A stretch of DNA of 32,712 nt, from contig JACPZO010000035.1 of assembly GCA_016195465.1 (NCBI GenBank), positions 1-32,712 on the forward strand, written 5' to 3'. The position numbers and the translations under genes were made by a program. Numbering within the stretch: position 1 is the stretch's first letter; every line of letters begins with the position of its first letter. The DNA is from Nitrospirota bacterium (GTDB lineage Bacteria > Nitrospirota > RBG-16-64-22). Shown here one piece after another: positions 5,947-14,348 of the stretch. Under the pieces are notes generated by a model that saw only the letters and a list, made by a program, of their open reading frames with translations, did not search any database and was not told the origin of the DNA.

Positions 5947-6816
5947 GTGAAGGGCGGGGAGAAAGTCTGGCTCACCCGGCGGGCGGAGTTCTCCGCGGCG
6001 CATTACTTGACGGCGCCCGGGGGTCGGGCGGACGCGATCCATGGCGAAGAGGCCCGCCGGCACGGCCATAACTACCTGATCGAGCTGACCGTGGCCGGTC
6101 CCGTGGACGCAGCCACGGGCATGGTTGTGAACATGTCGGAGATCAAGCGGGGGATTGCCGCCTTCTCCGATCTCTTTGACCACAAGTCTCTCAACGACGA
6201 TACCGCGTTTTTCGCCGACGCGCCGCCGACGGTCGAGGCGTTCGCGTCGGTCGCGTGGGGCCTGTTCGCCCCCCTGTTTGCGTCCCGACCGGTTTCGGGA
6301 CAGGCCGGGCGGTTCGGGGCGGCCCGTCTGGCAAGGCTCAGACTGTGGGAAGACGAGCGGACGATGGGAGAGATCGAAGACGACGCTCCGCCGGCCCCAA
6401 GGGGCGCGGCCCTGACGAGGGTCTACCGCTTCTCCGCGTCCCACCGCCTCAACGCCCCGGGACTCTCGGAGGCGGAGAACGAGCGGATCTACGGCCGGTG
6501 CAACAACCCCCGGGGCCATGGCCACGACTACGCTCTGGAGGTGACGGTCCAGGGAACACCCGATCCGGGAACGGGCCGGATCGTTCCCGTCGGAACGCTC
6601 GACGATATCGTCTCCCGGCAAATCCTCGGACGGTTCGACCGGCGGGACCTGAACGACGACATGGACGCCTTCGGCGCGGTGATCCCGACGGCGGAGAACA
6701 TTCTGAGGGTTTGCTGGGGGCTCATCGCCCCGTCCCTTCCCGCGGGGACTCTTTACCGTCTGCGGCTCGTTGAGACGCGGGACAACTATTTCGAGTATTA
6801 TGGACCCGAAATCTGA
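5947..6816 (+). CDS. Tandem two-domain 6-pyruvoyl-tetrahydropterin synthase / QueD-family fusion
   Basis: Two PTPS domains in one ORF: domain 1 FSAAHYL...[10 protein letters not shown]...DHKSLNDD...PTVEAFA; domain 2 FSASHRL...[14 protein letters not shown]...DRRDLNDD...PTAENIL...[17 protein letters not shown] 5947 chosen as start from the domain boundary; the ORF is open further upstream to 5818. Confidence 0.9.
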
Positions 6817-6832
6817 CAAAGGAGGATCGACA

Positions 6833-7456
6833 ATGGCGTCGATGCTGACGGCGGACCAGGCCATCTCGGAGATGGCGATGCAGGAAGACCGTTCCCGGAG
6901 GTTCCAGGAGACGATCCAGGAGATCCTCTCGCTGGTCGGGGAGGATCCCGGACGGGAGGGGCTCGTCAAGACGCCGGAGCGTGTGGAGAAGGCGTATCGG
7001 TTCTTCACGAGCGGCTACGGGAAGAGCGTGAAGGAGGAGGTCAACGGCGCGCTCTTCACCGTCGAGTACGACGAGATGATCATCGTGAACGACATCGACT
7101 TCTATTCCCTCTGCGAGCACCACCTCCTCCCGTTCTTCGGAAGATGCCACGTCGCCTACGTCCCGAACGGAAAGGTCCTCGGCCTCTCCAAAATCCCGCG
7201 CCTGGTGGAGATCTTCTCCCGCCGGCTCCAGGTCCAGGAGCGCCTGACCACGCAGATCGCCGAAGCGATCCAGGAGACGGTGAACCCCCTGGGCGTGGGC
7301 GTCGTGATGGAGGGCCAGCATCTCTGCATGATGATGCGGGGGGTCGAGAAGCAGAACACGGAGGCCGTCACGAGCGCCATGCTGGGCGTGTTCCGGACGG
7401 ATTCGAAGGCCCGGACGGAATTCCTCGACCTGATCCGAAGGGGCCGGGCGAAGTAA
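6833..7456 (+). CDS. folE: GTP cyclohydrolase I
   Basis: ATG 6833 preceded by aaaggagg. Motifs [88 protein letters not shown]. Confidence 0.97.
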
Positions 7457-8353: not shown

Positions 8354-9506
8354 TCAGGCCGCGAGCTTTTCCAGTCTGTACTCGTGATGCAGGCCGCCGA
8401 GGATCGGCTTCACTCCAATCCGGGCGTCCTTCGGGATCCGGTGCCTGTGAGGCTGCGGCTTGGCCGGCAGTCCCTCGGGCGGCTCCGGGATGCCCGGTCC
8501 CAGGCTTGAATGTGGTCGGCCGCGGTTGTAGTGGCCGACCCACTCCTTGAGGATCACGCTCAGGTGGTTCTCGCCCAAGGGGATCAGGAAGTCCAGGCAC
8601 TCCCTTCGGACCGTCCCGATGACCCTCTCGCAGAAGGCGTTGGCCTTGGGCGCCCGGACCGGCGTCTTGAGCACCCTGATCCCCATGTTTGCGACCGACC
8701 GATCCAGGGCCTCCGAGAAGATGGAATCCCTGTCATGGATCAGGAAGCGGTACGGGTGCTCCCAGGGAATGGCCTCCCGAAGCCGTTGCGTGGTCCAGCC
8801 CGCCGTGGGGTTTGACGTCACGCCGCAGTGGACGATCCGGCGGGATTCCACCTCGATGACCACGAGCACGTAGAGCGTCCGGAAGGACGCTGTCACGGAG
8901 ACAAGGAAGTCGCAGGCGATGATGGCCTTAGCATGGTTTCGGACAAAGCTCCCCCATCGCAGGGAATCTACCGTTTGCCTCGGCCTTCCTTGCCAATCCC
9001 TCGGCATATATTTCCTCACCGTCCGCGCCGAGACCCGGATGCCGAGCTTCACGGACAGTTCCGCCGCGATCCGCTCCTCGCCCCAGGTCGGGTTGTCCCG
9101 CGCCATGGCCGCGACCAGATTCCGGAGATCCCGCGGAAGCCTCGGCCGCCCCAGACATTTCCTCCGCCAGAGCATACGAAACCCCAGCCGGTGCCACCTG
9201 ATCAGCGTTCCCGGCTTCACGGCAACGAGAGCGTCCTTCCAGTCGAAGAGCCGTGACAGCAACACCAAGCCGAGCCGTGTCGCTCCATCCGCCCGCCGGG
9301 GCCTGACCTTACGCTCCCGAAAGAGCGCGAGCTGTTTTCGGAGAAAGAGGTTCTCGGCGGCGAGGGACGCGCGGGGGCGCAGGAGGCTCCCCGAGAAGCT
9401 TACGGCGTCGAGTGCGAGCCGGAGGACGCAGGAGGCTCCCCGAGAAGCTTACGGCGTCGAGTGCGAGCCGGAGGAGCGTGGAAAGAAGACGCAGAAAGCC
9501 GGCCAT
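8354..9506 (-). pseudogene. rve/DDE integrase-core transposase (IS3-like), frameshifted near N-terminus
   Basis: ORF 8354..9268 contains DDE-type motifs (IIACDFLVS, HDRDSIFSEAL, PKANAFCERVIGTVRRECLD). Its expected N-terminus MAGFLRLLSTLLRLALDAVSFSGSLLRP lies in another frame (ORF 9309..9506). Removing one copy of the 49-bp repeat restores SLLRPRASLAAENLFLRKQLALFRERKVRPRRADGATRLGLVLLSRLFDWK in frame. Confidence 0.85.
9378..9475. repeat. 49-bp perfect tandem duplication inside transposase
   Basis: cgcaggaggctccccgagaagcttacggcgtcgagtgcgagccggagga at 9378-9426 and again at 9427-9475. Confidence 0.95.
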
Positions 9507-10853: not shown

Positions 10854-12188
10854 TTGCATAATGATAATTTTATGCTCGGCCTACCCAAACGATTTATAAT
10901 AGGTGCAAAATTTGTCGTCCATGATGCCAAAAACATCCTGAGATCTGGAGGATTTCTTGTCGACAGTGGACGAGTAGTTGAAGTCCGACGTTTCAATGAG
11001 TTATGTAGATTATCCTCCAGCATCCCTTTCACTTATTTTTCAGACCATGTTATCATTCCCGGCCTTGTAAATGCCCATACTCATATTGAATTATCCGCTC
11101 TCGGACCGCCATCTGGCCCGGCGGAAGGGTTCCTGGATTGGTTGATCCAACTCGTCCGGGCAAGATCTGCCCTTGATCCCGTCAAACGCGCATCCGGGTT
11201 CATTCTGGGTCTGAATGCCGCCCTCGCTTCGGGAACGACCTGCATCGGAGACATAGAGTCCCTGGGTTTTCCTCCCACGCCGGCCGAAATCGAGTCCCGG
11301 CAGACGATCCTCGCCCGCTCCGGTCTTCGCGCAGTTTCGTTCCTGGAAGCCATCGGCCTCGATCCTGCCGAAGCCGGCAAAAGAGCGTCGTGCGTCAGGA
11401 GGGGCCGGCCGCAACCGGGCTCCACAACCGACAAAGCGCACCGGCGGCTCCTCGCCGGACTTTCTCTTCATGCGCCATATTCCGTCTCCGATGAACTGGC
11501 GGCCCGCGTTGCAAGTCTCGCGCGCAGATACTCCCTTCCCGTTTCGGTCTATCTCCTTGAAACCCCTTTTGAGAGAACCATGCCCGGCCGTCTCCGCGAC
11601 TTCCGCCGGTACTGTGCAACGTTCAACTGGAATTCTTCCTGGCTTAATCACCGCCCCTCCTCCCCTCTCGACTGGCTCGGCCGCCATGGTCTTCTGAACC
11701 AAAGGACGCTCGCGGTTCACGGCGTCCACCTGAACCGGCGCGAGATCGCAACGCTCGCCCGGAAAAAAATCTCCCTCGTCCTTTGCCTCCGGAGCAACCT
11801 CTACCTCCACGGAAAGCTCCCCCCGATCGCCCATCTCGTCGCGCAGGGCGTTCCTCTCGCCATGGGGACGGACTCGTTGGCCAGCAACTCCTCCCTCTCG
11901 CTCTGGGATGAGATGCGCGCGATCCTCGATCACGGCCGGCCGATCCTGACTCCTGCCGCCATTTTCTCGATGGCCACGGAGGGGGGGGCGCGGGCCCTCG
12001 GCCTGGCCGGGGTCGCCGGCGCGTTGCGGCCCGGATACCGCGCCGATTTCGTCATCGTCCGCCCGGGGTTTCGCGTGGACAACGCACGGGGCCTCTTTTA
12101 TAATCTGATTCGTTCCGTACGGGAGGCGCATGTCCAGGGCGTCGCCGTGGACGGGAGGATGATTTTCACGAAGGACCTGCCTCTTTGA
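10854..12188 (+). CDS. mqnX: Amidohydrolase-family deaminase, probable aminofutalosine deaminase (MqnX-like)
   Basis: Metal-binding motifs NAHTHIE, LSLHAPYSVSDE, AVHGVHLNRREI, GTDSLASNSSLS. Directly upstream of and overlapping mqnE. Start TTG 10854 or, more likely, ATG 10872. Confidence 0.8.
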   Translation: MHNDNFMLGLPKRFIIGAKFVVHDAKNILRSGGFLVDSGRVVEVRRFNELCRLSSSIPFTYFSDHVIIPGLVNAHTHIELSALGPPSGPAEGFLDWLIQLVRARSALDPVKRASGFILGLNAALASGTTCIGDIESLGFPPTPAEIESRQTILARSGLRAVSFLEAIGLDPAEAGKRASCVRRGRPQPGSTTDKAHRRLLAGLSLHAPYSVSDELAARVASLARRYSLPVSVYLLETPFERTMPGRLRDFRRYCATFNWNSSWLNHRPSSPLDWLGRHGLLNQRTLAVHGVHLNRREIATLARKKISLVLCLRSNLYLHGKLPPIAHLVAQGVPLAMGTDSLASNSSLSLWDEMRAILDHGRPILTPAAIFSMATEGGARALGLAGVAGALRPGYRADFVIVRPGFRVDNARGLFYNLIRSVREAHVQGVAVDGRMIFTKDLPL

Positions 12189-13270
12189 ACGAGAACGACC
12201 TGCTTCATTCGATCGAAGAAAAAGTGGACGCCGGAGTCCGTCTCACGCCTCATGATGCCCTGGCCCTCTTCCCCTGCAACGACCTCCTGGCCCTGGGCCG
12301 ACTCGCCGACAAGGCGGCCGTCCGCCTGAACGGGAACCGGGCTTACTTCGTCAGGAACCGTCACATCAACCCGACGAACGTCTGCGTTCACCGGTGCACG
12401 TTCTGCTCGTATCGGCGCGGCCTCTTCGATTCGGACGCGTACACGTTGGGCCTCGATGAGATCATGGAGAAAGTCGAGGGAGCCGGTCCCGACGTCCGGG
12501 AGTTCCACGTCGTCGGAGGGCTCCATCCCGACCTTCCGTTCGACTATTACCTTGATATCCTCCGCCGGATCCGCCGCGCGCGTCCCGGTGTCCACCTGAA
12601 AGCCTACACGGCCGTCGAGATCGACTTCTTCTCCAAGCGCTTTCGCCTCCCGCTCGAGGAAGTCATCCTGGCCTTGAAAGAAGCCGGGATGGATTCCATT
12701 CCCGGCGGGGGGGCCGAGATCTTCGCGCCGGCCGTCCGGGAGAAGATCTGCGGGGAGAAGATCGACGGCGACCGCTGGATCGAGGTGATCGAGACGGCCC
12801 ACCGTCTCGGGATCCCCTCGAACGCAACGATGCTCTACGGCCACCTGGAGACGAACGCCGACCGGGTCGATCACCTCTCGAAACTCCGCGATCTCCAGGA
12901 CCGGACGGGCGGAATCATGGCTTTTATCCCCCTCGCCTTCCACCCGGAGAACAACAGGGTCGGCCTCACGCGATTCACGTCGGGGCTCGACGACCTCCGC
13001 GTCCTCGCCGTATCCCGGCTGTTCCTGGACAATGTCCCACACGTCAAAGCGTACTGGGTGATGCTCGGCGAGAAGATGGCCCAGGTCGCCCTCCGATTCG
13101 GCGCGGATGACATCGACGGGACGGTCGTCGAGGAGAAGATCTACCACGCGGCCGGAGCCCGGGAACGGCCGGAGATCCCGATCGAGCGGCTGGTCCACCT
13201 GATCCGGACGGCCGGCAAAGTTCCCGTCGAGCGAGACACTCTCTACCATGAACTCCGTATCTGGAACTGA
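12185..13270 (+). CDS. mqnE: Aminofutalosine synthase (radical SAM)
   Basis: INPTNVCVHRCTFCSYRRG radical-SAM motif, EFHVVGGLHPDLPFDYY, AGMDSIPGGGAEIF. TTG start overlaps the upstream stop (TTGA). Confidence 0.92.
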   Translation: MNENDLLHSIEEKVDAGVRLTPHDALALFPCNDLLALGRLADKAAVRLNGNRAYFVRNRHINPTNVCVHRCTFCSYRRGLFDSDAYTLGLDEIMEKVEGAGPDVREFHVVGGLHPDLPFDYYLDILRRIRRARPGVHLKAYTAVEIDFFSKRFRLPLEEVILALKEAGMDSIPGGGAEIFAPAVREKICGEKIDGDRWIEVIETAHRLGIPSNATMLYGHLETNADRVDHLSKLRDLQDRTGGIMAFIPLAFHPENNRVGLTRFTSGLDDLRVLAVSRLFLDNVPHVKAYWVMLGEKMAQVALRFGADDIDGTVVEEKIYHAAGARERPEIPIERLVHLIRTAGKVPVERDTLYHELRIWN

Positions 13271-14348
13271 ATCGACGCTCGCCGCTGCCGTCGAGCGGGC
13301 GCGGGAAGGCCTTCGCCTCTCTCCCGCGGACGGCCTCTTTCTCTTGCGGGAGGGCGATTTCCTGCTGCTCGGGGAACTCGCCGCCCGGGCCAGGAGGCGG
13401 CTCCACCCCGATCCGCTCGTCACGTTCGTCGTCGACCGAAACGTCAACTACACGAATATCTGCGTCACGGAGTGCCGCTTCTGCGCCTTCTCCCGCCGTC
13501 CTTCGGATCCGGACGCCTATCTGCTGCCGTGGGGGGAAATCGCGAAGAAAATCGAAGGACTCCTCAGCGTCGGCGGAACGCAGATTCTCCTCCAGGGGGG
13601 ACACAATCCCGCCCTGCGGATCGACGACTTCGAGAATCTGTTCCGTAGGATCAAGTCGAGTTACCCCGTCCACCTCCACGCGCTCTCCCCGTCCGAGGTC
13701 TCGTACATCGCCCGGATCTCACGCCTGGACGTGAGGACGACGCTCTCCCGCCTCAAGGCCGCGGGTCTCGACTCCATCCCCGGAGGAGGGGCCGAGATCC
13801 TGAGCGACAGGGTGAGGGCCGTCATCGCCCCCAAGAAGGTGACGGCGGACGAATGGATCGGCGTCATGCGGGAGGCGCATCTTCTCGGCATCCCCTCTTC
13901 GGCGACGATGATGTTTGGAAGCGTCGAGACGGAAGAGGATATCCTCGAGCATCTCACCCGCATCCGAACCCTTCAGGATGAGACGCGCGGCTTCACGGCT
14001 TTCATCCCGTGGAGTTACCAGCCCGTGCCGGGAGAGCTGGAGCGCGACGAGGCGACGGCGATCGACTACCTCAGGATCGTCGCTTTCTCCCGCCTCTACC
14101 TCGACAACGTTCCCAACATCCAGGCTTCGTGGGTGACGCAGGGGCCCAAGATCGGGCAGGTGGCTCTCTTCTTCGGCGTCAACGACATGGGCGGAACGAT
14201 GATGGAGGAGAACGTCGTCTCGGCCGCCGGGACGGCGCACAGGATAACGATCGAGGAGATGGTAGACCTGATCCGGGAAGCCGGATTCGAACCCTGCCAG
14301 AGGGACACCCGCTACAAGATCATCCGGCGCTTCCGAACTCGCGGCTGA
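13248..14348 (+). CDS. mqnC: Cyclic dehypoxanthinyl futalosine synthase (radical SAM)
   Basis: RNVNYTNICVTECRFCAFSRRP, GGTQILLQGGHNPALRIDDFE, GLDSIPGGGAEILSDRVR. ATG 13248 overlaps the mqnE end by 23 bp. Confidence 0.93.
   Translation: MNSVSGTESTLAAAVERAREGLRLSPADGLFLLREGDFLLLGELAARARRRLHPDPLVTFVVDRNVNYTNICVTECRFCAFSRRPSDPDAYLLPWGEIAKKIEGLLSVGGTQILLQGGHNPALRIDDFENLFRRIKSSYPVHLHALSPSEVSYIARISRLDVRTTLSRLKAAGLDSIPGGGAEILSDRVRAVIAPKKVTADEWIGVMREAHLLGIPSSATMMFGSVETEEDILEHLTRIRTLQDETRGFTAFIPWSYQPVPGELERDEATAIDYLRIVAFSRLYLDNVPNIQASWVTQGPKIGQVALFFGVNDMGGTMMEENVVSAAGTAHRITIEEMVDLIREAGFEPCQRDTRYKIIRRFRTRG

Follow-up and report, generated by a model that had tools for sequence, protein, structure and literature searches.

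A two-domain PTPS gene beside folE

The window analyzed here, a whole stretch of 32,712 nucleotides from a Nitrospirota bacterium (contig JACPZO010000035.1), carries a gene for two tandem PTPS-family domains with folE directly behind it. Conservation is counted throughout in units, meaning fusions or adjacent gene pairs from Nitrospirota and Acidobacteriota, of which 59 were aligned and 47 have both zinc sites intact. The features are:

5947..6816, + strand: tandem PTPS gene, 289 amino acids plus stop, two PF01242 domains
5968..6375, + strand: domain 1 (D1, A-type), with three zinc His, Glu at the Cys position and Asp-His kept (HMM placement, residue table)
6049..6051, + strand: D1 Glu35, at the catalytic Cys position (residue table)
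6178..6183, + strand: D1 Asp78-His79, kept in 59 of 59 aligned units (residue table, alignment)
6412..6801, + strand: domain 2 (D2, B-type), with three zinc His, Cys kept and Asp-Arg replacing Asp-His (HMM placement, residue table, rat PTPS alignment)
6499..6501, + strand: D2 Cys185, kept in 47 of 47 units with both zinc sites intact (residue table)
6637..6642, + strand: D2 Asp231-Arg232, replacing Asp-His (residue table)
6833..7456, + strand: folE, GTP cyclohydrolase I, with GGAGG at 6821-6825 and its ATG 17 bases past the PTPS stop codon

The full 289-residue protein matches PF01242 at E 1.1e-48, with two matches above the cut-off in an open reading frame, and belongs to the PTPS/QueD family (PF01242, COG0720); whether it starts at GTG 5947 or TTG 5941 is uncertain. 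A sequence-only reading had proposed that its catalytic residues are divided between the two domains, and this division is confirmed: neither domain holds a complete Cys-Asp-His, D1 being without the Cys and D2 without the His. The zinc-type histidines noticed in both domains number three in each (His19, His39 and His41 in D1; His166, His191 and His193 in D2), and the Asp-His pair ascribed to D1 is indeed there, as Asp78-His79. Alignment with rat PTPS sets D2 Cys185 on Cys42 and Asp231-Arg232 on Asp88-His89, bearing out the description of D2 as a Cys domain with Arg in place of the His. D1 does lack the Cys, as had been claimed, but the detail needed correction: Glu35 occupies the position and the motif reads ExxxHGH, its Glu taking the place of the Cys in the QueD motif CxxxHGH, one position off ExxHGH. 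The CxxxxxHGH motif of PTPS-II type occurs in D2, as CNNPRGHGH, and is missing from D1. Sequencing error is unlikely, because a 90% identical protein from the same genus (L005, genome G002) carries identical residues at all these positions.

Further along the window, about 0.9 kb downstream of folE, lies an integrase-core (rve) transposase-like gene (8354-9268, minus strand). Positions 10854-14348 of the plus strand hold a futalosine-type menaquinone synthesis cluster, in which an amidohydrolase related to aminofutalosine deaminase is followed by MqnE and MqnC.

Relation to known enzymes

Each half of the fusion has a recognizable counterpart. D2 resembles PTPS-II, the animal 6-pyruvoyltetrahydropterin synthase (PDB 1b66, 3i2b), over its full length (E 2.6e-30), sharing the CxxxxxHGH motif and zinc ligands; the animal enzyme, however, is made of single-domain chains that each carry the whole Cys-Asp-His set, whereas the fusion has two domains with half a set each. 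QueD (6-carboxytetrahydropterin synthase, PTPS-I) is of the same family, and D1 has its spacing with Glu for the QueD Cys, but QueD is a single domain with CxxxHGH and is encoded separately in the window's genome. PTPS-III, the folate bypass enzyme of Plasmodium and bacteria, likewise has Glu for Cys plus a complete Asp-His, yet it is a single domain with ExxHGH, unlike the ExxxHGH of D1.

An AlphaFold model of the single chain was poor from a single sequence (pLDDT 58) and good from nine sequences (pLDDT 89, pTM 0.83), and a fold search with the AlphaFold model returned PTPS structures as its best matches, with TM about 0.93 per domain. Urate oxidase offers a looser parallel. It has two T-fold domains per chain, and its eight domains form four active sites at dimer interfaces (PMC5138847), so that it too is a tandem T-fold protein with fewer sites than domains, although its chemistry is different and cofactor-free. 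The tandem model fitted poorly onto urate oxidase (TM 0.21), and comparison with urate oxidase and GTP cyclohydrolase IB together spanned TM 0.2-0.25 with rmsd 16-20; ring size and alignment may differ, and these values do not show a common arrangement of the two domains.

Distribution and ancestry of the two domains

The closest relatives of the tandem protein are from Nitrospirota, where 161 of 396 genomes gave a profile match at E <=1e-15, single-domain matches included. Acidobacteriota have the family in two forms, fused and as neighboring gene pairs. In a tree of the domains, D1 clusters with A, the upstream member of the Acidobacteriota pairs, and D2 falls across the central split, together with B, the downstream member, and the singles. 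An ancient A/B divergence thus appears likely, though not firm, since the central split has an SH-aLRT of only 83; D1 of one fusion, L116, departs from it. The fusion has folE directly behind it in f2, f3, f24, f39 and f42, as well as in the window's own lineage and the L114/L115 group; folE also follows most A-B gene pairs, and precedes the fusion in genome G402. A literature search of one library, with a limited set of terms, found no paper on tandem PTPS proteins.

Catalytic residues are lost in one direction

Across the 47 zinc-intact units, D1 has lost its Cys in 18 and D2 its Asp-His in 14, 12 units having lost both; the D1 Asp-His and the D2 Cys are lost in none. For Asp-His, Glu counted as Asp (EH in two pairs). 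On the tree these patterns require at least four changes at the D1 Cys, five at the D2 Asp-His and zero at either of the other two slots. That all nine losses should fall on one complementary pair of slots has a chance of ~0.004 if each loss is equally able to strike either pair, a rough figure given that deep branches of the tree are unresolved. For joint loss, the events are too few for an independent-pairs test, and no weight is given to the raw Fisher p of 2e-5, which takes no account of kinship.

What replaces the lost residues varies widely. At the D1 Cys position stand Glu (f1, f3, f24), Ala (f42), His or Arg (L114/L115 group) or Lys (L116), while the D2 Asp-His has become DR in f1, HY or NF in f3, DQ in two unfused pairs, and SG or QG, or DC, in Acidobacteriota fusions. 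Six Acidobacteriota fusions show the split, combining His, Arg or Lys at the Cys position with SG, QG or DC for Asp-His. Conservation of the complementary substitutions in homologs was a check set by the sequence-only reading: the lost slots vary, and the kept slots are never lost in units whose zinc sites are intact. In the L114/L115 group, D1 of all five fusions has in addition lost its counterpart of rat Glu133, which D2 keeps in zinc-intact units. The zinc histidines and T-x-E motif of D1 are kept in nearly all two-domain fusions. In one f39 fusion (L054, genome G376) His occupies the D1 Cys position and a TAA falls inside D2, reflecting either an assembly error or a decaying gene.

Two Acidobacteriota proteins go further, with three PTPS domains each: L150 (genome G753; a 529-residue ORF from stop to stop) and L151 (genome G771; 431 residues). 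In both, domains 1 and 2 retain the Asp-His but have no Cys and only part of the zinc ligands, and domain 3 retains zinc ligands and Cys, with QM or DG replacing Asp-His. By their residues, these proteins obey the same one-way rule as the two-domain units.

A different history is seen in f10 and f18 of Nitrospirota, where many fusions have a complete D1 and a decayed D2 without zinc ligands (for instance L069, L070, L095 and L103). The same genomes also encode a single-domain PTPS that groups with the D2 of Nitrospirota fusions, and folE adjoins this single-domain gene in five of five loci checked. We read this as duplication and reciprocal decay that left one A and one B. It also makes clear that a full D1 triad can persist when its own chain has no working D2.

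Composite active sites as a probable explanation

In PTPS the Asp and His are supplied by a subunit of the opposite trimer. Characterized PTPS enzymes are dimers of trimers with active sites between three monomers (PMC7546909), and their triad is described as intersubunit in that paper, as well as in the title of Burgisser 1995, cited there and in PMC2229834. Where the triad is intersubunit, two diverged domains can specialize, with half of the potential sites given up. We consider it probable, on the pattern of residues, that the fusion is a PTPS-family lyase in which paralogous subunits A (D1) and B (D2) have been joined and share out the catalytic residues in composite sites. Dihydroneopterin triphosphate, the product of the FolE encoded next door, would be the substrate; D2 would bind zinc, and its Cys would take protons from the substrate, activated by the Asp-His pair of a neighboring D1 from its own or another chain. 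The reverse site, made of the D1 zinc pocket and the D2 Asp-His, would have been given up, leaving the D1 Cys and D2 Asp-His free to change.

We infer, then, that the D2 Cys meets the D1 Asp-His in the assembled enzyme, and the chemistry is proposed on the same footing. Units that have lost both slots favor composite sites: read domain by domain they would contain no complete triad, yet the D2 Cys and D1 Asp-His are kept. Linkers of 7-19 residues between model ends in the two-domain fusions are short, which favors neighboring domains. Other observations pull the opposite way. A two-domain chain is not an obvious fit to a ring of three domains, the zinc ligands retained by D1 in two-domain fusions suggest that this pocket still does something, and the D1 of f10 and f18 need not depend on the D2 of its own chain. 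The sequence-only interpretation is partly supported: its composite sites, a prediction as regards structure, have good support from comparative sequence evidence, in complementary slots that zinc-intact units never lose and in recurrence in Acidobacteriota with other residues. A stronger form of the proposal, to which we give roughly even chances, is an obligate and one-directional A/B PTPS in which A supplies Asp-His and B supplies zinc and Cys, encoded by adjacent genes, fused in both Nitrospirota and Acidobacteriota, and extended to chains of three domains that each hold a single zinc-Cys centre.

Alternative readings

Each domain might instead pair with its own copies, D1, with its zinc, Glu and Asp-His, acting as a PTPS-III-like enzyme that makes 6-hydroxymethyl-dihydropterin for folate, and D2 being inactive or altered. 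There is precedent in Plasmodium PTPS, where Glu can replace Cys and yields 6-hydroxymethyl-dihydropterin (PMC2229834), and the three genomes of the window's genus have FolK with no FolB found. This alternative, also raised by the sequence-only reading, emerged the weaker and is less likely than composite sites; we regard it as unlikely overall. The D1 motif is ExxxHGH where PTPS-III has ExxHGH (PMC5041015), and FolB occurs in both f24 genomes and in three of the four from f3, all with D1 Glu; motif position and FolB in relatives together make a PTPS-III identity for D1 improbable. In other fusions the D1 Asp-His stays when the Glu position holds Ala, His, Arg or Lys, D2 still has its Cys and zinc ligands, as a dead domain would not, and the other PTPS seen in the three genomes of the genus (on C113, of HEH type) could fill the folate gap.

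Should D2 be the sole enzyme, working without a partner His while Arg or other residues compensate, D1 would become a structural or regulatory pseudo-domain. D2 does match animal PTPS better than D1 does and keeps Cys, zinc ligands and Glu, but we find this reading quite unlikely given that 59 of 59 units keep a D1 Asp-His that a pseudo-domain would not require, and that the substitutes for the D2 Asp-His are highly diverse (DR, HY, NF, SG, QG, DC), without any one shared substitute. Very unlikely, finally, are two kinds of site in use, a composite D2-Cys/D1-Asp-His site for one reaction and a D1 zinc-Glu site for a second, which the persistence of the D1 zinc histidines and T-x-E and the Glu of f1, f3 and f24 would favor, but which meets Ala, His, Arg or Lys at the Glu position in other fusions and a gene neighborhood that points to no second product.

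Predicted function

Dihydroneopterin triphosphate is most likely the substrate, a prediction made because folE adjoins the gene; carboxy- and pyruvoyl-tetrahydropterin are the two candidate products. No PTPS other than the fusion was detected in f39 and f42 genomes, and QueC has a strong match in all of them except G352, on which grounds the fusion there probably serves 7-deazapurine (queuosine) synthesis. The window's own genome, at 93% completeness, has the separate QueD (on C138), a further variant (on C113, HEH) and FolK, with no FolB detected. A folate role is possible for one of its PTPS proteins, not necessarily the tandem fusion. The extra PTPS-family protein of the window's genus (L002; G000:C113:13077-13424), which has CLEAPHEHDW replacing the HGH motif region and is without Asp-His, is a candidate for the folate step, since FolB was not found in this genus.

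A biopterin role was considered for the window's organism and rejected, as no aromatic amino acid hydroxylase was found in the 25 Nitrospirota genomes tested. The triple fusions of Acidobacteriota have other neighbors. The fusion gene of G753 and an aromatic amino acid hydroxylase gene some 0.7 kb from it point away from each other, and in G771 an SDR reductase gene comes directly after the fusion; these adjoining genes suggest that the triple fusions are working biopterin-type enzymes, a predicted activity.

Implications for the PTPS family

A split that runs in the same direction in fused relatives from two bacterial phyla suggests shared active sites. If the A/B reading is true, unfused A and B proteins would form hetero-oligomers, and the three-domain forms may be usable for dissecting single sites. 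Composite sites, if true, would offer a test of which interface bears the PTPS triad, and would mean that naming domains by motif alone (QueD, PTPS-II, PTPS-III) misreads the enzyme. The family would then provide a clean example from nature of an active site, formerly common to identical subunits, that has been divided several times, and each time the same way, between two domains that diverged and are fused.
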